Origin: Apricaphanius iberus
Taxonomy: Eukaryota > Chordata > Actinopteri > Cyprinodontiformes > Aphaniidae
Direction of reading: 5' to 3'
Length of the DNA: 64,000 nt
Assembly (NCBI GenBank): GCA_028564705.1
Contig: JAPXFQ010002722.1
Coordinates: 248,001-312,000, forward strand
Position 1 is the first letter of the stretch. Every line of letters starts with the position of its first letter. Shown here piece by piece: positions 3,167 to 59,795 of the stretch. The notes beneath the pieces were generated by a model. The model worked only from the letters and a program-made list of their open reading frames with translations, searched no databases and was not told the origin of the DNA. The translations under genes were made by a program, and so were the position numbers.

Positions 3167-3430
3167 TACACTGAACAAAAATATACACAATTTTTCATGA
3201 GATGGACTTAAAGATCTAAAATTCATTACAGATACACAATATTACCATTTCTCTAAAAAATTGTTCACAAATCAGTCTAAATGTGTGATAGTGAGCACTT
3301 CTGCTTTGCTGAGATAATCCATCCCACCTCACAGGTGTGCCACATCAAGATGCTGATCTGACATCATGATTAGTGCACAGGTGTACCTTATACTGCCCAC
3401 AATAAAAGGCCACCCTGGAATGTGCAGTTT
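3167..3430. repeat. Left terminal inverted repeat of the Tc1-like element
   Basis: Pairs with the complement of 4485-4710. The innermost shared word is close to AAAACTGCACATTC. Confidence 0.85.
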
Positions 3431-3530
3431 TTTACTTTATTGGGGGTCTGGGGACTCAGAACCGGTCAGTATCTGGTGTGACCACCATTTGCCTCATGCA
3501 GTGCAAAACATCTTCTTCGCATAGAGTTTA

Positions 3531-4485
3531 TCAGATTGTCATTGTGGCCTGTGTAATGTTGGTCCACTCCTCTTGAATGGCTGTGCGTAGTTGTTGGATG
3601 TTAGTGGGAACTGGTACACGCTGTCGTATCCGCCGGCCAAGCACATCCCAAACATGCTCAATGGTTGACATGTCCGGTGAGTATGCTGGCCATGCAAGCA
3701 CTGGGACAAATTTCAGCTTCCAAGAATTGTGTACAGATCCTTGCATCATGGGGCCGTGCCTTATCTTGCTGAAACATGAGGTGATGTTCATGGATGTATG
3801 GCACAACAATGGGCCTCATCACGGTATCTCTGTGCATTCAAAATGCCATCAATAAAATGCACCTGTGTTCTTCGTCCATAACAGATACCTGCCCATACCA
3901 TAACCCCACCACCACCTTGAGCCACACGATCCACAAGATTGACATCAGCAAAGCGCTCACCCACACGAGGCCACACACGCTGTCTGCCATCTACCCTGAA
4001 CAATGTAAACCGAGATTCATCCGTGAAGAGAACACCTCTCCAACGTGCCAGATGCCATCGAATGTGAGCATTTGCCCACTCAAGTATGTTACGGCGACAA
4101 GCCGGAGTCAGGTCAAGACCCCGATGAGGACGACAAGCATGCAGTTGAGCTTTCCTGAGACGGTTTCTGACAGTTTGTGCAGAAATTGTTTGGTTATGCA
4201 AACCAATTGTTTCAGCAGCTGTCTGAGTAGCTGGTCCAGGCGATCTTGGAGGTCAACCATCTGGATGTGGAGGTCCTGGGCTGGTGTGGTTACACATGGT
4301 CTGCGGTTTTGAGTCCGGTTGGATATACTGCCATATTCTCTGAAACACCTTTGAAGACGGCTTATGGTGGATAAATGAACATTCAATGCACGAGCAACAG
4401 ATCTGGTTGACATTCCTGCTGTCAGCATGCCAATTGCACGCTCCCTCAATGCTTGTGGCATCTGTGGCATTTTGTTGTGAGACAA
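3531..4485 (-). pseudogene. Tc1-like transposase pseudogene
   Basis: This would encode a Tc1-type transposase, which binds the terminal repeats and performs cut-and-paste at TA sites in the nucleus. The N-terminal third has a helix-turn-helix (ALRERAIGMLTAGMSTRSVA, then a second HTH-like helix). The frame then shifts near 4250. The next frame carries the linker QTISAQTVRNRLRKA and the first catalytic aspartate in FTDESRF (about 4010-4030). Another frame carries the second aspartate in QQDKARPH (about 3740-3765), where the usual QQDNARPH has N to K. A further shift gives the catalytic glutamate in AYSPDMSTIEHVWD (about 3640-3680). At least three frame breaks are needed to read through, so no functional protein is possible. 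Start chosen at the ATG just inside the right terminal repeat. Nothing suggests domestication. Confidence 0.92.
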
Positions 4486-4710
4486 AACTGCACATTCAAG
4501 GGTGGCCTTTTATTGTGGGAAGTATAAGGTACACCTGTGCACTAATCATGATGTCAGATCAGCCAGCATCTTGATGTGGCACACCTGTGAGGTGGGATGG
4601 ATTATCTCAGCACAGCAGAAGTGCTCACTATCACTATTAGATCTTTAAGTCCATCTCATGAAAATGGGAGCAGAAACAAAGGTGTTGCGTTTATATTTTT
4701 GTTGAGTGTA
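4485..4710. repeat. Right terminal inverted repeat of the Tc1-like element
   Basis: Inverted partner of 3167-3430. Blocks such as AAGTCCATCTCATGAAAA match, with small indels between the arms. Confidence 0.85.
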
Positions 4711-7448: not shown

Positions 7449-8345
7449 TATTGAAAGCCGTTTGAACATTTATTACATGTCTTTGATATCAAACCTTAGG
7501 TCCATGTACTAGTACACAGTTTGTCCTCACTAGTAAGACAATTTGGCACAGTAGTATAATGACTAGGGTGCACTAGTATAACGACTGTGTCTTACTTGTA
7601 ACATGTTTTCCATTACTAGTGCTACTTTTGGCCTACTAGTATGCAATCAACCCTTACTAGTAAACTGCTGTGCCGCACTAGTGACACTACTAGATTAAAC
7701 TAGTAGGCATGTCTCACGCACTAGTAGCCTCCCGGACCCTACCAGTGTCGCCAAAATGTCCACTAGTAGCACTAGTAAGGCATTTTGACCTCACTAGTGC
7801 TACTTATGAGATACAAAATGTCCACTAGTAGTACTAGTGAGGTGTGTTTCCCTTACAAGTACTACTAGTAACATTGAGAATGCACACTAGCGGTACTAGT
7901 CAAAGCCAAAATGAACACAAGTAGTACTAGTGAAATTTTTGGTCCTTTTAGTACTTGTAAGCTTAAACACACCCCACTAGTACAGCAAGTGTACTTTTTT
8001 GATACCACTGCTACTGCTTGTAATGGCAAGATAAACCACTAGTAAATGGACTGAACTTATATAGCGCTTTTCTAGTCTTACTGACCACTCAAAGTGCTTT
8101 ACATTGAAGCTGCATTCACCCAATCACACTCATACACTGACAGGACAATGTAGAATTTGGGGGTTAAGTGCCTTGCCCAGGGGCACATTGACATGTGACT
8201 GGAGAAAGCTGGAATTGAACCTATGACCCTCTGATTGCAAGCCAACTACTCTACCACTGAGCCACAGTCGCCCCTTACTAGTAGGGTATTCAGGATGTTA
8301 GGAGTGCTACTAGTGAGGGCGAAAGTGTCCACTAGTAGCACTAGT
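7449..8345. repeat. Left terminal arm of the foldback candidate (ACTAGT-rich)
   Basis: Contains many ACTAGT or one-base variants at irregular 10-40 bp spacing. It pairs with the complement of 16.7-17.33 kb and of 17.33-18.0 kb. It is interrupted by a SINE at 8045-8276. Without the SINE the arm is about 665 bp, the same as one right-end unit. Confidence 0.85.
8045..8276 (-). mobile_element. tRNA-derived SINE with L2-type tail
   Basis: Reading the minus strand from 8274, the head GGGGCGACTGTGGCTCAGTG is followed by GTAGAG (RNA polymerase III A-box type) and GGTTCAATTCC (B-box type). The body then ends in GACTAGAAAAGCGCTATATA and GTCCATTT. That tail is the one shared by cichlid/percomorph tRNA-SINEs and their partner L2-clade LINE, which supplies the reverse transcriptase. 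The heptamer ACTAGTA flanks both sides (8038-8044 and 8277-8283) and looks like a target duplication, although ACTAGT is abundant here. The SINE interrupts the left arm and so inserted after the arm existed. Confidence 0.9.
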
Positions 8346-8865
8346 GGATTTAATTTTACAAAAATCTAATGAGGGTCAACATGCACTGAAGCTTCTTCCT
8401 ATTGGCTCTTCAGAAAGAATTGACACCCAGACAAGATTTAACCCTATAAAGCCTGATAAACTTTCACTGTTGTTTGTTGTTAGCAATAACCATATTGATA
8501 ATTAATAATATAATTAAGAATATTATCTATATGCTATAAAGATGAATAATTAAGTCAATCTAATATATCTCAGAGAGGAATTTAATTAATGTTTAGGTTA
8601 CAGGAATGTTTTTCTCATCATGTTTAAGTTGCTACATGAAATAACAGCTAGTGCTGTTTGGAAAGAGAAAAATTAGGTTACAACTGGCAGTCTTACCTTT
8701 TTTACATGACCTAAAATGGTTGTTTGTTGATTATATAATGGATTTGACATTCAGGGTCAATTGTATGCCTATGTTTCATAATTTTTCACTGTCCTGAAGA
8801 CTTAAAACACTCCTTTGGAAACATGATGTCATTTGATTTTGGTTCCCACTTGTGGCCTCTAAATG
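8346..8865. other. AT-rich spacer inside the foldback candidate
   Basis: Sequence without ACTAGT repeats and without a recognisable frame. It separates the terminal arm from the 30-bp array. I saw no counterpart in the right half. Confidence 0.6.
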
Positions 8866-9770
8866 CTGGCTGGTAGCACTGGTGGGCACTTTCACGCCAC
8901 TAGAAGCACTAGTGGCACTAAGCTTAGAGGCCACTAGTAGCATTAGTGGGCACATAGTAGGCACTAGTAGCACTAGTGGGCATATAATTGCCACTAGTAA
9001 CACTAGTGGACACTTTGAGGCCACTACTAGCACTAGTGGGCACTTTGAAGCCACTAGTGGGCACTATAAGAGCACTAGTAGCACTAGTGGGCATTTGAGA
9101 GCACTAGTAGCACTAGTGCCCACTTTCAGGCCACTACTAGCACTAGTGGCCACTTTTAGGCCACTAGTAGCACTAGTGGCACTAAGCTTAGAGGCCACTA
9201 GTAGCACTAGTAGGCACATAGTAGCCAGTAGTAGCACTAGTTGGCATATAAAGGCCACTAGTAGTACTAATGGCAACTTTGAAGCCACTAGTAGCACTAA
9301 GCGTAGAGTCCACCATTAGAACTAGTAGGTATTTCAAGGCCACTAGTTGCACTAGTGGGCACTTTCAGGCCACTAGTAGCACTAGTGAGCACTTTCAGGC
9401 CACTAGCAGCACTAGTGGCATTAGGCTTAGAGGCCACTAGTAGCACTAGTGGGCACTTTGAGGCCAGGAGTAGTACTAGTCGGCATTTCAAGGCACATAG
9501 TGACCACTAGTAGAACTAGTGGGCATGTAATGGCCAATAGTAACACTATTGGGCATGTTGAGGCCACTAGTAGCACTAGTCAGCATTTTGAGAGCACTAG
9601 TAGCACTAGTGGGCATTTTCAGGCCACTAGTAGTACTAGTTGACACTTTCAGGCCACTAGTAGCACTAGTGGGCATATAAAGGCCACTAGTAACACTAGT
9701 GGGCACATAGTGGGCACTAGTAGAACTAGTGGGCATATAATGGCCACTTGTAACACTGGTCACACTACTG
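8866..9770 (+). repeat. 30-bp ACTAGT tandem array, forward orientation
   Basis: The consensus unit reads GCCACTAGTAGCACTAGTGG followed by about 10 variable bases (such as GCACATAGTG or GCACTTTGAG). Each unit carries two ACTAGT palindromes 9 bp apart, then 21 bp to the next. Because the period is a multiple of three, it creates long Ser/Thr-rich open frames (ATSSTSGH-type decapeptides) on both strands. I regard these as a by-product: no start context, signal peptide or flanking exon supports a protein. Confidence 0.95.
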
Positions 9771-9775
9771 ACATC

Positions 9776-9960
9776 AAAATGCCCGCTAGTTCCACTAGTG
9801 GCCTTAAAATACCCACTAGTGCTACTAGTGGCCTCAAAATGCCCACTACTGCTACTAGTGGCCACTATGTTCCCACTAGTGCTACTAGTGGCCTCTAAGC
9901 TTAGTGCCACTAGTTCTACTAGTGGCCACTATGTCCCACTAGTGCTACTAATGGCCACTA
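9776..9960 (-). repeat. 30-bp ACTAGT array, reversed orientation
   Basis: The unit now reads CCCACTAGTGCTACTAGTGG, the reverse complement of the preceding block. The switch occurs within about 9765-9785, making a local palindrome with the forward array. Confidence 0.9.
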
Positions 9961-10475
9961 TGGCTGCATGCGAAACCACTAAATCAAACCAAACCGGATG
10001 TGCGTCAGCGTCCGCCATGATAAGATGCATCCAAATTGGGCTTCCAGTTAGGAAGGAGTTAGGGAAAGTGGCCTGTATGCTAACTATCATAGCCACTTTA
10101 GCATAAGGTCCTCTGATACTAACTAACTGGCGATTAGGAGCCATGTGCCATCCCACAATCCCTTGCGCCACAAGACGCCATCAATACAAGTCACCCGGCC
10201 CACCTCACGTAAAATAACGAAAATGGCCGAAAGGAAAAAGACGCAGGCATGTGAGTACAACAACCACTTCCGAAGGTTTATTTTGATATGCGTCATTCAT
10301 GTGCGTTTATGTCGCGTAATGACGTCGGGTAGAAAGGCTGTCGAAATGGGCACATTCGCGAACGGCTCCCTAGACTACTAGCCATAGTATTCTCACTGTT
10401 GACCCCATGAAAGGTTAAGGATTAGTTGCTAGTGTTAGTGCTTAGAGGCTAACATTCAGTGGTTTCGGATGCAGG
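9961..10475 (+). promoter_or_regulatory. CpG-rich promoter-like patch within the ACTAGT arrays
   Basis: This patch is non-repetitive and clearly richer in CpG than its surroundings (GCGTCAGCGTCCGCC, GTCGCGTAATGACGTCGGG). It contains a CRE-like TGACGTC and the word ATCCCACAATCCCTTGCGCC about 70 bp upstream of an ATG with a strong splice donor. The reversed ACTAGT array resumes directly after it. Promoter function is an inference. The patch could also be a fragment of another transposon inserted in the array. Confidence 0.4.
10223..10250 (+). CDS. Candidate 28-nt first coding exon (speculative)
   Basis: ATGGCCGAAAGGAAAAAGAC and the following 8 bases encode MAERKKTQA plus one base and run directly into GTGAGTA, a near-consensus donor. 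The ATG has a G at +4 and lies within the CpG-rich patch. I found no matching downstream exon. The same geometry (28 nt, then GTGAGC) occurs at 63327-63354. If real, it would be the first exon of a gene carried by the large element. Confidence 0.2.
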
Positions 10476-10750
10476 GTATGTCCCACTAGTGCCATAGTGG
10501 CCACTATGTCCCACTAGTGCTACTAGGGGCCACTATGTCCCACCAGTGCTACTAGTGGCCACTATGTCCCACCAGTGCTACTAGTGGCCACTATGTCCCA
10601 CTAGTGCTATTAGTGGCCACTCTGTCCCACTAGTGCTACTAGTGGCCACTCTTTCCCACTAGTGCTACTAGTGCCCTCAAAGCACCCACTACGTTTACTA
10701 GTTGCCACAATGTGCCCACAAGTGGCCTCAAAATGCCCAGTAGTGCTACT
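10476..10750 (-). repeat. 30-bp ACTAGT array, reversed orientation (second block)
   Basis: Near-identical units of CCACTATGTCCCACTAGTGC type, ending in degenerate units near 10745. These are the most homogeneous copies in reversed orientation and suggest recent local amplification. Confidence 0.9.
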
Positions 10751-13040
10751 ACTAAGCTAACATTAGCCGGTACTGTATAGAGCCCGGCCATGTTGCCATC
10801 CCACTACGTTTGCTTGATCGCAAAATGAAATATAAAGCTGGTAACAATTAGCTGTCTTATTTTCTCTTATTGACAGCTTTAGAAAACATGAGACCATAGC
10901 ACTACAACTGACAATAGTACACTGTTATGAACCACAAAAATAAGAAATGAGGGACTATGAGGGAACAACACAAACTATTACATAAATACTTCTGGGTATA
11001 TTGAATAGCAACTAAATTGTCCAGGATGCCAGATGGGCTATTGAATGGGTCTACCTGAAAAAAATTGTTCTGATTACCCTTACGCAACACAAGCCTACTT
11101 CTCAATAGATTATATGACGATATATTATGTGTATTCATATATTGTTAAATTTACACATATATTTTGTATGATATGTAATTTGTGCAAATGATGTATTTTG
11201 CAGTATATGAAAATAGTGCAACTGTAAAAAAATGTTATGTTGTTAGACTTTCATTTATTTAAGATATAGAAATATACCTTAAATTATACAAGATGTTATA
11301 ATGGAATATGTATTGTAAATACAACTAGTTACTAACATTGTATATATATATATATACAAATATGCACACACTCACACACTATTTATTGCCTAACAACAGT
11401 TTAATTCTCTTAAAGTAAAAGGACACCAGAAACTACATGAAACATTGTTAGGTGTCATGTGATCCAAAAGATGGAAACAGTAATTATAAATGAAAGCAAA
11501 TTACATATAAAAAATAGAGATATTTCCCAAATAGCCAAATGTCTTTTTCAATCAAATCAAATCCCCCCAATTTTTTTTTTAAATGAGGACGTTTCCTCAG
11601 TGCTAAAAAAAGGAAGAAAAAGAACAAAACGCCTGCTAGGACGAGTCTGATTTGGTCTCTCTGAAATTTTCCATGGAAGACTTCTTATCCTGTTGTCTTA
11701 GCTAGCATATTATTTTGTTTATGGCCAGCCGTTTGTCTGGAATCTTTGACCTCGGATGTTGCTCAACAACTGCATCTCAAAAAGATGATAAAAAAACAGA
11801 CATCCAGAACAGTAACCACAAAATATTGCAAAAAAGGCAAGATTACCTACACCAGTTATTTTCCACTTGTATGCCTTTTACTTGTTCCTCAGTTCCACAG
11901 TGGGAAATATGTACATTTTTGTGTTAATTTTGCATGATTTGTTTGTGGATTTGCTGTGTTTTTGTTTGGATTTGTTATCCCTCTGTGAGTCCCAAAAACG
12001 CCCAAACTGAACTTATCCAGATGAGTCTGGAGGAGGAGCACAGCAATCAATCGATTTGTGGCATGTGCGCAAAAATGGAGTAGGCTGCACATAAGGAGAG
12101 CGAGGCAGGAACCTAAGGAGGGAATCCACTGGACAGAACACCACAAGCGATGGCGCACACTACTTCAGCAGAAAGTGACAGGCAGCGTGAGACAGATGAT
12201 CAGGGCAGAGTAAGGCCTCTGCCTTCGTGAGTACCGTTTCACCCAAGAAGCAAGTGAGGACCACCGCAAGATTTGCGCTATGCGCAGTATGAACCGTGGG
12301 TGTGCGGATATTGGTGCCTTCATCTTCCTTTTCAGCTGGCTGTGGCTGAAGAGGGGTGTGGCATGTCAAGGTCGAAGACCTGAGGGCGTCAAGATAAGCT
12401 GTTCGTAGAGGCCTGTTTCCTGCATTTTTTTTTTTTTTTACAATTCCATTGAAGCATGGTTGAAAAGCAATGTCTGAGTTTCATTTGTTAACTTTTATAG
12501 AATTTTTATTTATTATTACTTTTGTCAAATTAAAGTTATTTATGTGACCATTATGAGTTTTTCTTTTATTGACTGAAGGGTACCAACAAATTTTGTCCAC
12601 GTCTGTAAGTCTGTTAGTCAGCTAGTAGTACTGACAATAAAATATTACATTGCTAAAAAGTGATAAAAAAATACTTTGTGTACTGCTATGTGGTAAATAA
12701 TTATAATATCAAAGCCTTTAAAAAAATTGGAGGTCAAAGTTTTTGTTAGAAAGTTTTCTACTTCAAAAAGCACCTTAATAAATTTACACCTAACTTGCAT
12801 GTTAACATTTATTGCTTTTTACCCATTTCAAATTAAGAGTTATGTGACTCCCACTGAATTTGAATGAAGGCAGTTAGGAAGCGAACCCGCCGAATAATAG
12901 CTTAATGTGGATAGCAATCTAACGGCTTCCAATTTGAATCATTGCCAATTAGCCTCTATATAGTTGCTTAAGCATTTAAAGCGTTATCAATTAATATCAG
13001 CTGAAAAAGTAAAAGCCGTTAGCTATCTTACAGCCACCAA
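10751..13040. other. Interior of the foldback candidate; no gene recognised
   Basis: Mostly AT-rich with a short (TA)n at 11338-11356 and a T run at 12426-12440. The stretch 11990-12410 is less AT-rich and contains some CpG, but I found no convincing exon. This is where a transposase would be expected if the element were autonomous, and none is recognisable. Confidence 0.5.
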
Positions 13041-13799
13041 TGATACCCACTTTATTAGAAAATCAGAATCAGAATCAGCTTTAATGGCCAAGTATGACAC
13101 ATACAAGTATGACGCATACAAGGAATTTACAGATACAGTACAACCTGTCCAAGACCATTACAAACAACAACAACAAACAGATCCAGGTCACTGTTGGGCA
13201 TGCAGCCACCGAGCGGTGCTCCCGTTTATGAAACATAGAAAATACACATCTGGGTAGGGGAGGGTTCCACAGTGAGGGGAAAAAACGCTCAACTGTGTTG
13301 TGGGTCCGTACAGCACTCACAACGCAGGTAATAGAAAAAACCACACCAACAAACATTTAAGCACATATTCAGACAATAACAATGACACATCAGGAAGGAT
13401 GGGCAGGTATGAGCTCCAGTCCACAGGTTAACGCGCTGCCATCGAGGCGCGCTGTTATCCAGCTTCCTGTTGCAGGAGAGAGAATTGAGGATACAGCGAG
13501 ACGGTGTGTGTGAATGTGAGTGTGTGTAACCATGTCAGTGTGTGCGTCAGTAGATGCAGGTGTACGGGGGAGAGGAGACTCTGTTGACATTCTTCTCAGG
13601 GACATTTGATTAGGACCAGGTTAAAGGTCTTCATGGGAGCCAAAATATAAATTATTTGGATAGCAGGGAGAGATCAAATATTCCTTTCTGTCCATTCAGT
13701 CTGTCAGTGGTTTCTTTTATAGTCTAATTCAGCCAAATTATAGTTCAAATTAAAGTTCCAAATCCAAATTAATTCCCAGATTAATAGTTCCCAATCCAA

Positions 13800-14075
13800 T
13801 TAATTTCCAGTTGCCCCAATCCGCACCGACAGTTTCTCCAAGTCCGATGACAAATTACGGATGAGTCCCAGAGCGCCGGCCAGATCGCCTCTTACAGCGT
13901 CTGTTCTGCGTCCCAGCTCCCCCAGCATTTGGTTCTGAGTCCCATCAGTACGAATCAACGCATCCAGCTGTTCCTTCAGCCGTCCAATCGCTTCCAGAAC
14001 AGTGACCAATCTCGACCGTGTTTCAGATCTTTGTTGCTCCATTTTTTCGGTAGTTCCAGTAACTGCCCATTCCAA
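13800..14075 (-). CDS. Coiled-coil polypeptide, probable continuation of the membrane protein frame
   Basis: 91 residues, charged and heptad-like: EQQRSETRSRLVTVLEAIGR, LKEQLDALIRTDGTQNQML and IRNLSSDLEKLSVRI. This fits an extended amphipathic helix. Its first about 17 codons overlap the end of the upstream membrane-segment frame, so it probably is not an independent gene but the C-terminal part of that protein after a frameshift. The stop lies about 740 bases before the hexamer tail, leaving a long 3' UTR-like stretch. Function unknown. Confidence 0.35.
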   Translation of the reverse strand: MEWAVTGTTEKMEQQRSETRSRLVTVLEAIGRLKEQLDALIRTDGTQNQMLGELGRRTDAVRGDLAGALGLIRNLSSDLEKLSVRIGATGN

Positions 14076-14295
14076 TCAGCAGAAACCCGATCACCACGAT
14101 TGCTAATAGATATAAATCTTCAGCATCCTCTTGGGAGAGTATTGACAGACACAACGGCTGAAACTTTGTCCAAGCGTCCAGCACGTAGCCCGCCGGATAC
14201 GTCTCCGCAGGACACCCCGGTTGACCCTTACCGATGCTTCGTAGAGTTGAGTAGATTTTATCAATAGCATTCAGAGACCAGCTGACCATTTCCAT
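14023..14295 (-). CDS. Small single-pass membrane protein, unknown family
   Basis: A 90-residue frame starting at an ATG in a GC-richer leader. Residues about 1-60 are soluble with two cysteines (GQPGCPAETY, PLCLSIL). Residues about 62-80 form a clear hydrophobic segment (LYLLAIVVIGFLLIGMGSYW), followed by a basic tail (NYRKNGATK). The frame ends where a second frame, shifted by one base and overlapping it by about 50 bases, continues with a coiled-coil-like sequence. A single one-base frame change would therefore join them into a membrane-plus-coiled-coil protein of about 160 residues. I do not recognise the family. It could be an element-encoded protein or a retrocopy of a host membrane protein gene. 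Confidence 0.4.
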   Translation of the reverse strand: MEMVSWSLNAIDKIYSTLRSIGKGQPGCPAETYPAGYVLDAWTKFQPLCLSILSQEDAEDLYLLAIVVIGFLLIGMGSYWNYRKNGATKI

Positions 14296-14482
14296 CTTCG
14301 CTTATTCAGTTTGGTTTCGGGGAAAATTGCCAAAATATACTCCAGATAGAGGCACAGGAGACAGAGAGCTGTGGAATAAGACACAGGAGGAGGAGGGAGG
14401 GAAAAAAGCGACCGTCCTCGCTGAGAGCTGAGCAGAATGTAGCTAGCTCATCACTGTCTCGGAGCTAACAGCTAACTGTACT

Positions 14483-14536
14483 TTGCTAATACCGAAACTC
14501 TATCATTCCTTGCTAATACCGAAACTCTATCATTCC
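14483..14536. repeat. 27-bp perfect tandem duplication
   Basis: TTGCTAATACCGAAACTCTA plus TCATTCC occurs twice head to tail with no mismatch. Probably a recent slippage or repair duplication near the 5' edge of the nested unit. Confidence 0.95.
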
Positions 14537-14734
14537 TGATACATTGCATGAGAGCATTCATAAATATTTGCTGTACTTGCCTGCCAACAGTAAATGTGGG
14601 GTTTCAACCAGCCACCCATTTGTAGGTATCTTCCCTCCGATGCACCGGGCCTCGACTAGATACTCCTTAATCCACAATCCGACTCACTTGTGCTGAGTCG
14701 ACTCCCGCTCTTCTTCTTTGCTTGAGAGTTTGGA

Positions 14735-15075
14735 GACCACTAGTAGCACTAGTCAGCACTTAGAGGGTACTAGTAGCACTAGTAGGCATTTAAAGGCCAC
14801 TAGTAGCACTAGTGGGCATGATGAGGCCACTAGTAGCACTAGTGGGAACATAGTGGCCACTAGTAGCACTAGTGGGAACATAGTGGCCACTAGTAGTGCT
14901 AGTGGGCATGTTGAGGCCACTAGTAACACTAGTGGGAACATAGTGGCTACTAGTAGCACTAGTGGGCATGTTGATGCCACTAGTAGCACTAGTCTGCACT
15001 TAACGGCCACTAGTAGAACTAGTGGATCTAAGTTTTGAGGGCACTAGTGGGCACATAGTGGCACTAAGCTTAGAG
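14735..15075 (+). repeat. 30-bp ACTAGT array, forward orientation (right block)
   Basis: Same unit and orientation as the block at 8866-9770. Two successive units at 14821-14880 are exactly 30 bp apart and nearly identical, ending GGGAACATAGTG. Confidence 0.95.
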
Positions 15076-15585
15076 GCTATGGCATAGTTTTGAGTTTTAA
15101 GTGCATTTATTTTGTTAAGGAGCTTTTATTTTAATCACAACTATATTTTTCAAAAACGATTAAATAAACGCTCATATGTTGTTCATGAAAATATAATCTT
15201 GAGCTTGCTCATCTACTACAAATATTTTCTCTTAATAAAAATAGATATTATGTAATCATTTGTGTGCACAGCAATGTATTTTGAAATCTATGATTCAGTA
15301 CATTTTAATAGCTTGTTAGTCCATACACTGCTATATATTATTTATTATACGTGGAAGTTTCTCATAAATTGAAATATAATTCCAAATGCATTTAAATATA
15401 AATCGTAGTGCACTGCAATATATTTTTGTTTCGTAAGGGTAAGTTAGCAAAAAAAAGTTGTAACATCTTCCAGTATGACTGCTGCAAACACTTTAGTATA
15501 CAGAGTGGCCCCTTTAAGGCTCTAAGCATACAGTTTGAACATCCAACAATCACAATCCATGTCCCACCTCCTTCATTTGCATGCA
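15076..15585. other. AT-rich spacer in the right half of the foldback candidate
   Basis: No ACTAGT repeats and no coding feature. It contains AATAAA motifs on the plus strand. It is the positional counterpart of the left spacer, though I see no sequence match. Confidence 0.55.
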
Positions 15586-16667
15586 GTCCACTAGTCATAC
15601 TAGTGACACTAGTGGCGGCATGTTGCAACGGACTTGTTAACTAGTAAAGGCCAGACTATCCACTAGTAGCACAAGTGAGACTATTATGGTTTTACTAGTA
15701 CAACTAGTAAAAACAAACAGGTCTACTAGTAGCACTAGTGAGACTTTTTGATCTTACTAGTACCACTAGTAGATGGCAACATGTCTACTAGTACCACTAG
15801 TAAGGGCATAAATGTGCACTAGTAGAACTAGTAGGTGGCAAGATATTCACTAGTAGCACTAGTGGAGGACTTTTGCATCAAAAATGCTCACTAGTGTGAC
15901 TAGTGCCACGGTTTTGTGTTTTACTAGTGTAACTAGTAGAAGAAAACGCGTCTCACTAGTGAGCTTCTGAGCATCACATGTAAAGGCTATGGCTGTACTA
16001 GTGCGCATCTGTGCATCACTAGTTCGCAACTAGCACACAACTAGTATGCATTTACACACTACAAGTGCTTGACTACACACAACTAGAAGGAAATTTCTGT
16101 AACATGTTAGGCATTTCTGCACACTAGCAGGACAACTATGGCATACTAGTAGGACAGCTACATCGTACTAGTGAGGTGGTAGTGTGCACTAGTTGACATA
16201 TGTGGGCTACTAGTGTTACTAATGAAACACTAAATGCTAACTAGTAGAAATTTGTGATGTCACTAGTACGACTAGTGGTACAGAATTGTCAACTAGTGCA
16301 CACTTCTGCCTCCCTTGTAAGATGTAACTGTCTTACTAGTATACTAAAGTTGTCCTACTAGTGTGCAGCAATGCCTTACATGTTACACAAATGTCCTACT
16401 AGTTTTGTGTAGTCACACACTGGTAGAGTGAAATTGCAAACTAGTGGCATGCTATTTGCAAACTAGAGCTGTGCATTTGTGCACTAGTACAGCCAAAGCC
16501 TTTACATGTGACGTTCAGATGCTCACTAGTGAGACAAACTTTCTTTAACAAGTTACACTAGTAAAAAACAAAACGTACCACTAGTAACACTAGTGAGCAT
16601 TGTTGACATCACTAGTACTACTAGTAAGGTGTAAAAGTCCCCTACTTGTACTACGAGTGGATATTTT

Positions 16668-17327
16668 GCAACATTCTAGTGCTACTAGTGCACATTTGGC
16701 CCTGACTAGTTGCACTAGTAAAGTAAAACATGTCTCACTAGTTGACATGTTTGCCTTTTCTTCTAATACTTTTAATATGATAAAAGTCTCACTAGTGCTA
16801 CTAGTAGAGTGTTTGGCTGTTACAGGTTGTACTAGTAAAGTAAAACACATCCTCACTAGTACTACTTGTGTTCACTAGTACTACTAGTGTGCATTCTCAC
16901 TGTTACTAGTAGTACTAATAAGGGAAACACACCCCACTAGTAGTACTAGTGGACATTTTGTATCTTACAAGTAGCACTAGTGAGGTCAAAAATGCCGTAC
17001 TAGTGCTACTAGTGGGCATTTTGGCAATACTAGTAGGGTCCGGGAGGCTACTAGTGCGTGGCACATGCCTACTAGTTAGGTCTAGTAGTGTCACTAGTGC
17101 TGCACAGCAGTTTACTAGTAAGGGTTGATTGCATACTAGTAGGCCAAAAGTGGCACTAGTAGTGGAGAAAAATTTCACAAGTAAGACACATTCGTTATAC
17201 TAGTGCACCCTAATCGTTATACTAGTGTGTCAAATTGTCTTACTAGTGAGGACAAAGTGTGTACTAGTACATGGACCCAAAGTTTGATATCAAAGATATG
17301 TAATAAATGCTCAAACGGCTTTCCATA
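16668..17327. repeat. Terminal unit, inner tandem copy
   Basis: Aligns with the next unit at a 660-bp offset: GCTACTAGTGCACATTTGGC at 16681 against GCTACTAGTGCACATTCGGC at 17341. It ends in the same terminal sequence (CAAACGGCTTTCCATA) as the true element end. Confidence 0.85.
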
Positions 17328-17998
17328 GTCACTTACTAGTGCTACTAGTGCACATTCGGCCCTTACTAGTAGTACTACTAAAGTAAAACATGCCTCACTA
17401 GTTGACATGCTGGTCTTTTTTTGTAGTACTAATAATATGATAAAAGTTTCACTAGTGCTACTAGTAGAGTGTTTGGCCGTTACAAGTTGTACTAGCAAAG
17501 TAAAACACATCCTCATTAGTACTACTTGTGTTCATTTTTGCTTTCACTAGTATCACTAGTGTGCATTATCACTGCTACTAGTAGTACTAGTAAGGGAAAC
17601 ACACCCCACTAGTACTACTAGTGGACATTTTGTATCTTATAAGTAGCACTAGTGAGGTCAAAACTGACTTACTAGTGCTACTAGTGGGCATTTTAGCGAT
17701 ACTAGTAGGGTCCGAGAGGTTACTAGTGCTTGACACGTGCCTACTAGTTAGGTCTAGTAGTGTCACTAGTGCGGCACAGCAGTTTACTAATAAGGGTTGA
17801 TTGCATAGTAGTAGGCCAAAAGTGGCACTAGTAGTGGAAAGAATTTTACAAGTAAGACACAGTCGTTATACTAGTGCACCCTAGTTGTTATATTAGTGGG
17901 CCAAATTGTCTTACTAGTGAGGACAAACTGTGTACTAGTACATGGACTTAAAGTTTGATATCAAAGATATGTAATAAATGCTGAAACAGCTTTCCATA
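17328..17998. repeat. Terminal unit, outer tandem copy
   Basis: Second copy of the 660-670 bp unit, ending CAGCTTTCCATA at the element boundary. Roughly 90 percent similar to the inner copy by eye. Confidence 0.85.
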
Positions 17999-18000
17999 TA

Positions 18001-55300: not shown

Positions 55301-58300
55301 TTAGTTAAAGGCTAAGCTAAAAAGGTGAGTCTTGAGTCTGCTCTTAAAAACATTAATATTCTCTGCGGCCCTGAGGTCCTCTGGCAGCCTGTTCCAGAGG
55401 TGAGGGCCATAATAATGGAAAGACGCCTCCCCATGAGTCTGTGTCCTGACTTTGGGGATGACAAGGAGACGGGTGCCAGAGGAGCGCAGAGACCGCGAGG
55501 GTTCATACGGTAAAAGCATTTCTGACAGATACGAAGGCCCAAGACCATTAAGTCACTTAAAAACATTAAAAGAACCTTAAAATCGATCCTAAAACATACG
55601 GGGAGCCAATGCAGTGATTCTAAGACCGGTGTAATGTGCTCCCGCCTCCTAGTCTTCATCAGGACACGAGCTGCTGAATTCTGTAAAAGCTGTAAACCTG
55701 AGGTAGTCTTTTTGGGAAGACCAGAAAGCAGGGCATTACTATAATCAATTCTACTGGTGATAAAAGCATGCATTAGCGTCTCCGTATTGGCCCGAGAGAG
55801 AATGGGGCGGACTCTGGCAATGTTCTTTAGGTGATAAAAACCTATTTTGTTGATGTTTTTAATGTGAGGGATAAAAGTCAGCTCAGAGTCAAAAATCACA
55901 CCCAGGTTCTTCACTTGTAAAGAAGAATGAAAAGACAATGATTGTAGTTTTGGTAAAAGTTTTTCTCTCTGAGCCTCAGGACCGATAACTAAAACCTCAG
56001 TTTTGTCCTGGTTGAGCTGGAGAAAGTTTTCTGCCATCCAGAATTTAATGCTTAAAATGCAGTTAAAAAGTGCATCCATTGGCCGTGTGTCATCAGGAGA
56101 CATGGAGATGTACAACTGTGTATCATCAGCATAACTGTGAAAGTTAACTCCATGTCTCTTGATAACACTGCCAAGAGGGAGCATATACAGGTTAAAAAGC
56201 GCTGGGCCTAAAACTGAACCCTGGGGAACACCACAAGTGATCTTATGGACCTTAGAGGAACAGGTATCTAAACTTACCGTAAAAGTCCTGTCTGTGAGGT
56301 AGGATGTGAACCATTTGTGAACAGTACCAGAGAGACCGATCTGTTTTAAACGAGTTGAAAGAATAGTGTGGTCTACTGTATCAAAGGCAGCGCTTAGATC
56401 CAGAAGAACCAACACTGTCACCTTTTTAGCATCATAGTTTAATCTAAAATCATTTAAAATCTTTAAAAGCGCCGTCTCTGTGCTGTGGTTCATCCTAAAA
56501 CCAGACTGAAATTTCTCTAGGACATTATGAGCGTTAATAAAATCATTAAGTTGAATAAAAACAAGTTTTTCTAAAACTTTGCTTAAAAATGGTAAGTTAG
56601 ATACTGGTCAGTAGTTGTTTAAATCATTAAAATCTAATTGCTCTTCTTCAGCAGGGGCCTAACTACCGCCGCTTTAAAGGCAGCAGGAAAAACCCCCGTC
56701 TGAAGGGAGCAATTCATAAAGTTTAAAATCTCATCTTTAAAAGAACCATAAAATTGCTTAAAAAACCTGGTGGGAATCGGGTCCAAAGCGCTTGTGGTGG
56801 GCCTCACTGAGGAGAAAACTTTATCAAGGGTCCCAGCTTCTACCAGGACAAAACTGTCCAGTGTTTCCTCTGGTGAAGGCAGACACTCTGATTTGTCTAA
56901 AACCATGTTTGTTTGAGAGGATAAAATCTGATTACATCTGATGGTGTCTACCTTCCCTCTGAAGTGGTCTGCATACTCCTCACAAAGAGTGTTTGAGGGG
57001 GTTTTCTGAAAAGTATTAGTATTATGATGTAAAATGTTGTCAATGGTGGAAAACAGAATTTTGGGATTATTTTTATGTTCTGAGATGATTCTGGAAAAGT
57101 ATGTATTTCTGGAATTTCTTAAAGCGTTATTATATAGTCTGAGATATTCTATGTATATCTGATGATTTATTGTGATTTTATTTTTCCTCCATTTCCTTTC
57201 TGCCACCCTGCAGCTCCTCTTTAATTTTCTAATAGCTGCATTTCTCCACGGTACTGTACGTTTTGAATGAGGGTTTATAACTTTAATTGGAGCCAGCAGG
57301 TCGAGAGCAGATTGAAGCCTACTGTTAAAATCATTAACGATAAAATCACAGGGGGCAGGTAAAGGTATAGGAGGACATTTTTTAAAAACTTCAAGAAAAC
57401 CTGCAGCCACTTCAGGGGTTAGATGACGCTTCCTGACAGTTCTCACAGAGGTCTCTGATTGGATAAAACTGGTGATATTAAAAAACACACAGTAGTGGTC
57501 AGAGACAGCCAAGTCAACAACAGAGGACACACTGGTGGACAGGCCATACGTGATGACCAGGTCCAGGTTGTGTCCTCTGTTGTGAGTCGGCTGCATGACA
57601 TGTTGGCTAAAATCCATATAATTTAATATATTTAAAAAATCTGTTGATAAAGGATCTAAAAGGTTATCTATATGTAGATTAAAATCACCAGCTAAAATTA
57701 TCTTCTCATAAGAGTTGTGTAAAATTGATAAAAACTCTGAGAATTCTGGAATAAAAAAGTGCATTCCTTTTCGGAGGCCTATAAACTGTGACACATAAAA
57801 TCTGAGGAGTGCTAAAAACAGAGGCAGTGTATTCAAACGTGGTAAAATTATTAAATAAAACAGGTTTGGCGGAAAGAGTTGATGAACTAATAAAAGCAGT
57901 TCCGCCTCCCCTCTGGCTACTCCTCGTAGAATAAGAAAAGTTATAATTAGGTGGAGAGGCCTCTGTAAGAATAGCAGGGGCATCTGCACTCAGCCATGTC
58001 TCTGTTAAAAATAAACACTGAAGGTTCTTATCTAAAATCAAGTCATTTATTATAAAAGTTTTATTCAGCAGAGAGCGAACATTTAAAAGAGCCATATTAA
58101 GAGTGGTTGGTGATGGAGTGACTGTATGACTTACTGTAGGTGGGATTTTTAGTAACTGTTTATGATTATTTGGGTTGCATTTTCTTAGTTTATGATTATT
58201 TCTTCGCTCTCTGCTGACAATAACAGGTATGAATGAAGTAGGGTAAGGTCCAAGTCCGATATGTGAGTTACTGTTAAAATCAGGATTGGGTTCATAGGAA

Positions 58301-58317
58301 CAAGGACCAGCTGCACA
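55301..58317 (-). pseudogene. LINE ORF2: endonuclease and reverse transcriptase
   Basis: ORF2 supplies target nicking and target-primed reverse transcription. The frame is open directly after the ORF1 stop: 74 sense codons lead to MALLNVRSLLNK. Endonuclease blocks: LFLTETWL, QRGGGTAFI, TVYRPPK, then a frameshift near 57770, ILAGDFNLHID, LDLVITYG and VSDHYCVFF. RT: VVRPLLKKSN, then a frameshift and a TGA where NNYRPVSNLPFLSK is expected (near 56600; R to stop fits CGA to TGA). Then come motif A VLVLLDLSAAFDTVDHTIL, motif B GVPQGSVLGPALFN and motif C YADD in FHSYADDTQLYIS. The C-terminal part has ITPVLESLHWLPV, another shift and stop near 55560, and ends with GPHLWNRLPEDLRAAE. Catalytic residues are intact; only the frame is broken. 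Confidence 0.92.
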
Positions 58318-59617
58318 TCAGGATGTTGTGGATGGGGCAGAGAGGACAGGAGCAGCTGGAGCCGGTGCAGGGGACAGGGGTGGGCGAGGGTATGCCAGGC
58401 TTAATGCCAACATGCGGGTACCTTGTCTGTTAAGATGTAGTCCATCTGCCCCAAATAATTGACTCCTACCCCAGAAAATGTTAAAATTGTCTATAAAACC
58501 AATGTTGTGCATCACGGTAACAGAGGAAAGCCAAGTGTTGAGAGAGAGTAACCTGCTGAAGCGATTTATTCCTCTGCTGATGGTTGGAGTGGGGCCAGAA
58601 ATAAAAACAGATAGGGGCTTGTCTTTTAAAAGATTAAAAAGATGAATAAAATCCTGCTTTAAAAGCTCAGACTGCTGTTTACGGATGTCAGTGGTTCCAG
58701 CATGAATTATAACTTTACTCACAGTAGGGAAACGTTGGATGGAGTCCAGAATCTGTTCAGATATATCCTTTACTGTAGCTCCAGGAAAACAAAGGGTGAC
58801 AGCTCCTCTCATCCTAACATGCGGGATAATAGAATCTCCAATGATGAGAGTGCTGGGTGGATGGTGTGCTGGCTGCTGGGCAGAAGACCTCTCGTTATCC
58901 AGGACCTGCTGGATGTTGGGCAGCTTGGCTTCCACAGGACTGCAGCGGTGTTTAGAGGTCGCCGAGGGCTCGTTCCGTGGATTCGGGGTGTAGTGAAGCA
59001 CTCCTCGGCGGGTCCCGGCTGTAGTCCTGGGTCTGGCGCGACGTGGGTGGATACCGGAGTCTGACTGCTGCTCTGGCTGCTGGGAGGGGATGGGCGGCGG
59101 TCCTGCGGAGCTGCTGGTCTTCGGCGCGGTCGGAGGGACGGTCAGAGGAGGGAAGTCGTCCCCCAGGGCACCGAAGCGGTTCGACAGAGGAAAGGCCGGG
59201 TGGAGGAGAACGGTGAAAGCCGCTCCGGGCGCCCCCACTGCGACCAGGCCCGACCGTCCACCACGCACCCTGGGGCACCGGAGTGGAGCTGAGGGGGGCT
59301 TTTGGCTTAGCCCCCTGCTGGATCCAGCACTCCTCCTCTGCCGTAGATGTTGTACCTCCGCCGGAGTTCGTCTGTCCGAGTCCGCCTGGAGACCCAGCGA
59401 TGGAATCCCCCTCCGCAGCTTCACCGGGCTGGCAGGGGATTGTGTCGGCCAGCTGGGCGCTGGTGGCAGCAGCGAAAGTTCGGCCAAAGATGATGTCCAC
59501 GTCGCGCTCGTGGTCCTGGATCAGGTGTAAATTGGTGATCCTCTGCTCCAGTTCCTGGATTTTCTTGGTTAGCCTGGCACAACCATCACACCCGGAGCTA
59601 CAGGTGAGTGGAGGCAT
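58318..59617 (-). pseudogene. LINE ORF1: coiled-coil and SGNH/GDSL esterase protein
   Basis: ORF1 of CR1/L2-type LINEs binds element RNA, and its esterase domain is thought to interact with membranes or lipids. Start chosen at MPPLTCSSGCDGC. A short coiled coil follows (RLTKKIQELEQRITNLHLIQ), then an acidic/proline-rich linker with TPVPQGAWWTVG. A one-base frameshift near 59230 moves to the frame with LSNRFGALGDDFPPL, and the esterase occupies about the last 190 residues. Blocks visible are TLIIGDSIIPHV (catalytic Ser block), FPGATVKDI, VIIHAGTTDI (block III, normally GxND, here N to T) and GADGLHLNRQGTRML (Asp/His block). It ends at UGA. The N to T change and the frameshift argue for loss of function. 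Confidence 0.88.
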
Positions 59618-59795
59618 GGCGGAAGTAACAGCGGTCCGTGCTCTGATTAAAAACGCGTCCGATAAAAGATATGTCGCTAAAAGTTTAAAACGTTTAAAAC
59701 TAGTCAACAGAAATTATTAAAAAACGAAAAACAAACAGTTAAAAAAGAATTTAAAACTAGTTAAAACCGTGTTAACGAGCCGGAGTTAGCAGGAT

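Follow-up and report, generated by a model that had tools for sequence, protein, structure and literature searches.

The stretch at positions 7449–17998 of the window, by which we mean the whole 64,000-nucleotide stretch of Apricaphanius iberus DNA that was analysed, is read, with a probability of roughly 0.83, as a composite in which two non-autonomous copies belonging to a single foldback-armed DNA transposon family of the IS3EU type are joined. In agreement with the first-pass annotation, which had described its ends as inverted, ACTAGT-rich copies outside which similarity stops abruptly, local alignment placed 7449–7933 in inverted orientation against 17998–17513 at 90.9% identity over 486 columns, and other copies terminate at the same word. 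The same left segment was also inverted relative to 17327–16853 (89.7%). ACTAGT was seen 200 times in 7449–17998 against 8.1 occurrences expected from dinucleotide content, and 14 times elsewhere in the window, where 14.0 were expected. These dyads are arrayed at 9-bp and 21/22/30/31-bp spacing. The family termini are TATGGAAAGCCGTTTGAGC...GCTCAAACGGCTTTCCATA, and the window copy itself has TATTG at its left end and CCATA at its right end. Both the window stretch and other copies show the foldback architecture, with extended inverted arms that contain tandem repeats.

The stretch is a genuine mobile DNA element with dozens of copies in the genome. Searches of the window's own assembly (1.2 Gb) gave 80 exact matches to the 17-bp terminus TATGGAAAGCYGTTTGA on many contigs and 121 matches to the arm word at up to 2 mismatches, with no matches to the control in either case (a reversed pattern for the terminus). 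The first-pass annotation had named a lack of other copies with the same termini as a refuting outcome, and the search did not refute it. It had also proposed looking for a target duplication, which was found in other copies at 6 bp and in some at 7 bp. A 6-bp duplication in which 5–6 of the 6 bp agree was observed in 10 of 20 flank pairs (5 exact) against 1 of 380 cross-paired flanks, and an exact 7-bp duplication in 3 further pairs against 0 of 380. No duplication was seen in the other 7 pairs, including that of the window copy, where 3 of 6 bp agree. The window flanks by themselves had led to TA or TAG being considered as the duplicated target, a reading dropped once other copies gave 6 bp. 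Of the 11 fetched copies with two ends, 7 had TATGG..CCATA at both. Copy lengths that were read spanned 2.6–11 kb, and end positions put another two copies at about 14 and 15 kb. Many copies are recent: in an arm alignment of 20 copies, 17 lay 0.5–3.1% from the majority, while L030 and L045 lay at 4.7–4.8% and the window copy at 6.5%.

On the basis of termini, duplication length and the integrase-like exons of relatives, the family best fits IS3EU, a little-studied transposon group. The marks of IS3EU given in PMC12730594 and PMC10045372 are TAYGG..CCRTA ends, 6-bp target duplications and terminal inverted repeats longer than 30 bp; inverted repeats here extend over 486 columns at 91% in the window and over 672 bp at 87% in copies L031 and L040. 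Relatives carry exons of an integrase-like DDE transposase that is a candidate for the IS3EU type. Unlike in IS3EU as so described, the arms are several hundred bp long and packed with ACTAGT, inner arrays and palindromes are present and the copies hold no whole transposase; such arm architecture is not named for IS3EU in the passages of those two papers that were consulted. It is unlikely that the family belongs instead to a 6-bp-duplication group near but outside IS3EU proper, namely GingerRoot or another integrase-like superfamily. According to PMC10045372, GingerRoot shares the 6-bp duplications, its termini are mostly TA..TA, and no line is drawn between it and IS3EU; TAYGG..CCRTA is, however, quoted for IS3EU, and the family ends in TATGG..CCATA.

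Assignment to IS3EU also draws on copies that adjoin transposase exons. In the C880 copy, an ACTAGT arm is followed by spacer, inner array and then transposase exons 1–2, with exon 2 matching rva_4 positions 2–21 (E 2.2e-7). C493 has an exon 2 with 97% identity to the C880 one, and its exon 3 matches rva_4 positions 21–194 (E 3.9e-76); these two relatives hold HTH-like and rva_4 (integrase-core) exons. C493 has exons 2–3 and an exact terminus 27 kb off, with no second arm seen, and C880:241500–246500 contains zero ACTAGT. A flank test did not support the idea that a full element is divided between C1488 and C493, and none of the assembled copies was seen to combine both arms with the complete set of transposase exons. 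Neither 10 ORFs from the window nor 3 from other copies gave a Pfam match above cut-off, the core of the window copy did not match the transposase proteins tried, no transposase was found in the window copy, and exon 3 had no meaningful match among solved structures. The core of the non-coding copies had no match to the transposase-bearing elements read, so that their descent from an autonomous copy is hypothetical. A scan of viral contigs gave 0 matches to a 21-base array word and none for the transposase; at 17 bases there were 18 single matches, in contig stretches holding no more than 12 ACTAGT each, and these were taken as chance.

The order of parts, on the plus strand where a strand is assigned unless stated otherwise, begins with the outer left arm of the older copy (7449–8044), which is ACTAGT-rich, has the terminus TATTGAAAGCCG (family form TATGGAAAGCCG) and is 92% identical to positions 1–601 of the L027 element. 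Among 40 scored candidates, 31 places elsewhere in the genome covered at least 570 of 592 bases of the left-arm query. The arm is interrupted by a SINE-like nested insertion of 232 bp (8045–8276) between ACTAGTA at 8038–8044 and 8277–8283; L027 is continuous across this point, its positions 1–601 corresponding to window 7449–8044 and 604 onward to 8277 onward. The remaining left arm and an AT-rich spacer occupy 8277–8868, and each of the 19 fetched copies has a counterpart of the spacer (8351–8868) at 71–89% identity. Repeat analysis then identified an inner array (8870–9760) whose 30-bp unit carries a pair of ACTAGT words at 9-bp spacing, and an array of opposite orientation on the minus strand (9763–10751). 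The pieces of the latter, 9763–9962 and 10477–10751, are split by a CpG-rich nested insertion of 514 bp (9963–10476) that has GCTGCATGCGAAACCACT / CCCTGCATCCGAAACCACT as its short inverted ends and TATG on either side. The core of the older copy (10752–13063) is without coding match and resembles L027, L034, L036, L037 and L038 at 79–86% in matching pieces, these five having about 2.4 kb extra in mid-core relative to the window copy. It is followed by a nested insertion on the minus strand (13064–14435) with an (ATTCTG)n-like 3' end, its type judged by eye, which is absent at this point from L027: window 12606–13063 and 14436–14741 align to the adjoining L027 segments 7622–8071 and 8069–8342. 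The older core ends at 14436–14741.

The right part of a younger copy takes up 14743–17327 and comprises an inner 30-bp ACTAGT array (14733–15077), a spacer (15078–15570), an imperfect palindrome and a right arm with terminus CTTTCCATA at 17327. The palindrome (15661–16870, centre about 16265) is 74% complementary over 1,264 columns and has counterparts in copies L031 (77%) and L040 (74%). The right arm of the older copy follows at 17328–17998, with terminus CTTTCCATA at 17998. The stretch contains two tandem right arms (16676–17327 and 17336–17998, 90% alike). The doubled right arm, the palindrome, the inner 30-bp arrays and the two-copy chimera went beyond the first-pass annotation.

Identity to L027 is 80.8% up to 14741 and 96.6% over the 2,585 bp of 14743–17327, with 95.6–99.5% in 200-bp windows from 14849 to 17348. 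The switch from older to younger sequence, at about 14741–14743, lies where the right inner array begins. From 17336 the outer right arm is 92.3% identical to C1782 and C110, 93.2% to C850 (1–630 of 663), 91.5% to C483 (1–600) and 90.8% to the young L027. The older arms of C1782, C110 and C483 read GCAACTTACTAG, GCTACTTACTGG and GCCACTTACTAG, and the young arms of L027 and L031 read GCAACATACTAG; in the window copy, younger sequence stops exactly at its own right terminus, within the older right arm. The older copy is therefore 7449–14741 plus 17328–17998, holding the right part (14743–17327) of a younger copy inserted in its right arm. A single intact 10.5-kb element was dropped, as the identity switch and the comparison of older and young arms show a chimera. 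The younger copy would have inserted into the older right arm with GTCACT (17328–17333), which from comparison with other arms is both the start of the older right arm and the surviving half of the presumed target duplication, and the right inner ACTAGT arrays of both copies may then have recombined, removing the younger left part together with the older right spacer and palindrome. A single copy that underwent local tandem duplication or gene conversion, with no nested insertion, would also have a doubled arm. Local alignment shows the right arms as direct repeats with 8 bp between them, L039 and C345 too have small extra terminal repeats at their ends, and the left copy of the presumed GTCACT duplication is gone and so not checkable. 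We nevertheless consider this origin improbable: the inner arm goes with 2.5 kb of younger sequence (96.6%) and the outer arm is older, and the 8 bp between them are older-arm sequence running straight on from the younger terminus.

Foldback architecture is best known from flies. FB and Galileo, whose target duplications are 9 and 7 bp, belong, like Tetris, to other superfamilies than IS3EU. The first-pass annotation had proposed a fish element of FB/Galileo architecture or a new non-autonomous giant element; a mobile, non-autonomous element of foldback build stands, but neither the FB/Galileo kind nor one intact element does. Drosophila Tetris, FB and Galileo share with the family extended inverted arms that contain tandem repeats, a variable middle, rearranged copies and non-coding copies (compare PMC4079207 on Tetris). 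That the family is a foldback element related to P (Galileo) or to FB and Mutator-like elements is nonetheless very improbable, as 6-bp duplications prevail (7 bp in 3 of 20) against 8–10 bp in Tetris (PMC4079207), TATGG..CCATA fits IS3EU and not FB or Galileo, and the transposase exons adjoining arms match rva_4 where those elements have transposases of their own. Teratorn is likewise a large teleost element with long inverted repeats; it differs in its piggyBac transposase and herpesvirus-like genes (PMC6431247), none of which were found in the window stretch. That a satellite, of which tandem arrays exist here, was locally duplicated in inverted orientation and is not mobile is refuted by the exact termini on many contigs and the target duplications.

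Two further elements were compared with the IS3EU-type family. A transposase-bearing element of the same genome (C1123:125551–139956) has the left terminus TATGGCAAGCCATTTTAACATTTA, alike in 20 of 25 bp by eye, an exact 6-bp duplication GGTGTC, an rva_4 exon and arrayed palindromic words near its ends; it differs in its 14.4-kb length, in GATATC arrays instead of ACTAGT, in ending in CCAAA, not CCATA, and in a HECT-domain piece. DNA identity at exon 2 is 72% over 117 bp. The L071 element has 783-bp arms, 98.9% inverted, in which CGCCG/CGGCG is arrayed more weakly.

The ACTAGT arrays are probably transposase-binding sites. The rva_4 transposase, made elsewhere, would bind the arrayed dyads, bringing both arms together, and would then cut at the TATGG/CCATA termini and insert with a 6-bp stagger. 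In diverged arms mismatches amounted to 3.4% inside ACTAGT vs 6.3% outside; conservation of the word was significant alone in 1 of 7 comparisons, all sharing one partner, and is only suggestive. It is possible, though rather doubtful, that a branch of vertebrate IS3EU elements normally has foldback arms and that each family in it has its own arrayed word (ACTAGT here, GATATC in the C1123 element and, more weakly, CGCCG/CGGCG in L071), read by the HTH of its own transposase. If so, end recognition would be a fast-evolving repeat code and one family could not move another. The family places foldback architecture in a different transposase superfamily, in a fish, and its many copies allow arms, duplications and candidate transposase exons to be compared. 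Its arrays of palindromic dyads lead to a testable claim on end recognition by the transposase, and the window copy is an example of how copies can become fused when such arrays recombine.

The inverted ends that the first-pass annotation had described for 7449..18000 were confirmed, with 7449-7933 pairing with 17998-17513 at 90.9% identity. ACTAGT was counted 200 times in this 10.55-kb copy (7449-17998) against 8.1 expected, and its count outside the copy was at background (14 versus 14.0 expected). Distances between adjacent ACTAGT words in the copy peaked at 9, 21, 22, 30 and 31. The right arm is doubled (16676-17327 and 17336-17998), a palindrome spans 15661-16870, and the inner arrays consist of 30-bp units with both orientations represented. 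A 514-bp CpG-rich insertion with inverted ends of roughly 18 bp and a TATG duplication lies in an inner array (9963-10476). Other repeats in the window include a partly inverted minisatellite of ATTTAGATTTAACATTTAG-like units (2303-2715), inverted repeats of 95% identity (3285-3431 and 4484-4634) that enclose broken minus-strand reading frames resembling by eye a Tc1-type transposase (3285-4634), and long minus-strand reading frames that by eye resemble a non-LTR retrotransposon with reverse transcriptase and an endonuclease-like part (55312-59720).

The same annotation had taken the 10.5-kb stretch as one element. This did not hold, as 14743-17327 is 96.6% identical to L027, a young copy from the same assembly, and is flanked on both sides by older sequence. 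In 200-bp windows, 14849-17348 was 95.6-99.5% identical to the best of nine young copies. Against these copies, windows to the left gave 90.0-94.5% in the arm and 74.6-92.3% in spacer, arrays and core, while those to the right gave 89.0-95.0%; windows over nested insertions gave no match. The young part stops exactly at its terminus and the bases that follow, GTCACTTACTAG, are the older arm sequence itself. Among the arms of other copies, three older ones have GCAACTTACTAG, GCTACTTACTGG and GCCACTTACTAG at that stretch and young ones have GCAACATACTAG; a fourth older arm, on contig C850, is without it. The window copy is thus a chimera of older and younger copies, and as the older arm continues directly from the young terminus, the younger copy was therefore inserted into the older right arm. 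The change from old to young sequence, at about 14742, falls at the start of a right inner array, as would be expected if the two copies had recombined through their right inner arrays.

That the stretch represents a transposable element was borne out by a search of the window's own 1.195-Gb assembly for other copies with the same ends, in which exact matches to the 17-bp terminus numbered 80, against none for the reversed control. An arm word allowed up to two mismatches had 121 matches (places given for the first 100) and its control 0. Arm searches gave 225 candidates for the left arm and 241 for the right, 40 of each being scored. Twenty regions were retrieved, holding 19 copies, of which 11 have both ends and measure 2.6 to 11.1 kb end to end; in the best preserved of these the 25-bp ends are complementary. 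Target duplications were evaluated in 20 flank pairs (12 including the window pair, and 8 more), the C345 and C1348 pairs being left out on account of one truncated or unrecognised end. A match at no fewer than 5 of 6 positions was seen in ten pairs, five of them exact, and three further pairs matched at 7/7; among 380 cross-pairings the numbers were one and zero, respectively. Neither a 6-bp nor a 7-bp duplication was seen in 7 of the 20, and the window pair is alike at 3/6 positions. By end positions, copies on C1530 and C778 span 13.7 kb (duplication 5/6) and 15.0 kb (7/7). The L039 copy shows a CTGGYG duplication only when a 19-bp extra right-end repeat is included, a post hoc reading. Extra partial terminus copies are stacked at the L039 right end (19 bp) and at the element end at C345:351240-351322 (83 bp), as if ends were repeatedly re-added. 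The ACTAGT-armed element is a mobile family.

The ends of the family, TATGG..CCATA, fit the TAYGG..CCRTA ends given for fungal IS3EU families, along with 6-bp duplications and TIRs longer than 30 bp, in the available text of PMC12730594; that of PMC10045372 gives IS3EU ends as TA..TA and the duplication as usually 6 bp. Tetris, a foldback element, shares the build of the family but makes duplications of 8-10 bp, according to the available text of PMC4079207. No ACTAGT-armed or foldback IS3EU was found in the portions of the literature searched, and Repbase may already hold a consensus.

ACTAGT arms were found joined to transposase exons. On contig C880 the order is left arm (87% identical to the window), spacer and inner array, with two transposase exons less than 100 bp beyond. 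In L029 (C1488), arm and array are followed by roughly 4.5 kb of other sequence and then exon 1 at the contig end; apart from this exon, none of the transposase proteins tried convincingly matched the cores of the window copy and the 19 retrieved copies. A genome search with exons 1-2 gave 8 matches out of 8 candidates, including C493, where exon 2 is 97% identical to that of C880 and exon 3 supplies the remainder of the domain (rva_4 21-194, E 3.9e-76). An exact terminus oriented as a right end lies 27 kb downstream; a second arm was not seen in the C493 sequence read. Among the best 120 of 2,866 proteins, the closest relatives of the exon-3 protein are from fish, with Acanthopagrus, Larimichthys (85%), Nibea, Labrus, Hippocampus and Gymnodraco at 73-87%.

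A Pfam rva_4 search of the genome gave at least 157 matches (150 scored of 536 candidates), and five of these loci were examined. One of them lies on C1507; its sister copy, on C1123, sits within a 14,406-bp element that begins with TATGGCAAGCCATTTTAACATTTA, ends in CCAAA, has an exact GGTGTC target duplication and codes for rva_4 (E 3.9e-85) as well as a HECT-domain piece (E 5e-10). This piece of a HECT ubiquitin-ligase domain lies at L074:6536-6913 (minus strand). GATATC is arrayed at the C1123 ends, 7 times in the left 420 bp and 16 in the right 700 bp. Inverted arms were also found at two more of the five rva_4 loci, over at least 783 bp in L071 (98.9%) and 757 columns in L073 (94.2%). L071:1-851 and L073:619-1373 represent a further family that bears a transposase and has inverted arms, near-identical and about 0.8 kb long, and L071 begins at its contig's first base with TGGCAAGCCGTTA. 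CGCCG/CGGCG occurs at 8 places in each, in the outer part only. That the families of a vertebrate IS3EU branch each carry their own arrayed end word, read by their own transposase, may hold but is less likely than not, and L071 and L073 lower its odds somewhat, as their commonest 6-letter words are others, e.g. AAAACG.

Seven comparisons of diverged arms, all including L027 and with CpG columns excluded, gave fewer mismatches inside ACTAGT (36/1,066) than outside (198/3,122), a deficit significant alone in only one of the seven. Transposase is likely provided in trans, and its HTH domain would bind the arrayed ACTAGT dyads. The two arms would then likely be paired, cut at the TATGG/CCATA ends and inserted, probably with a 6-bp stagger.
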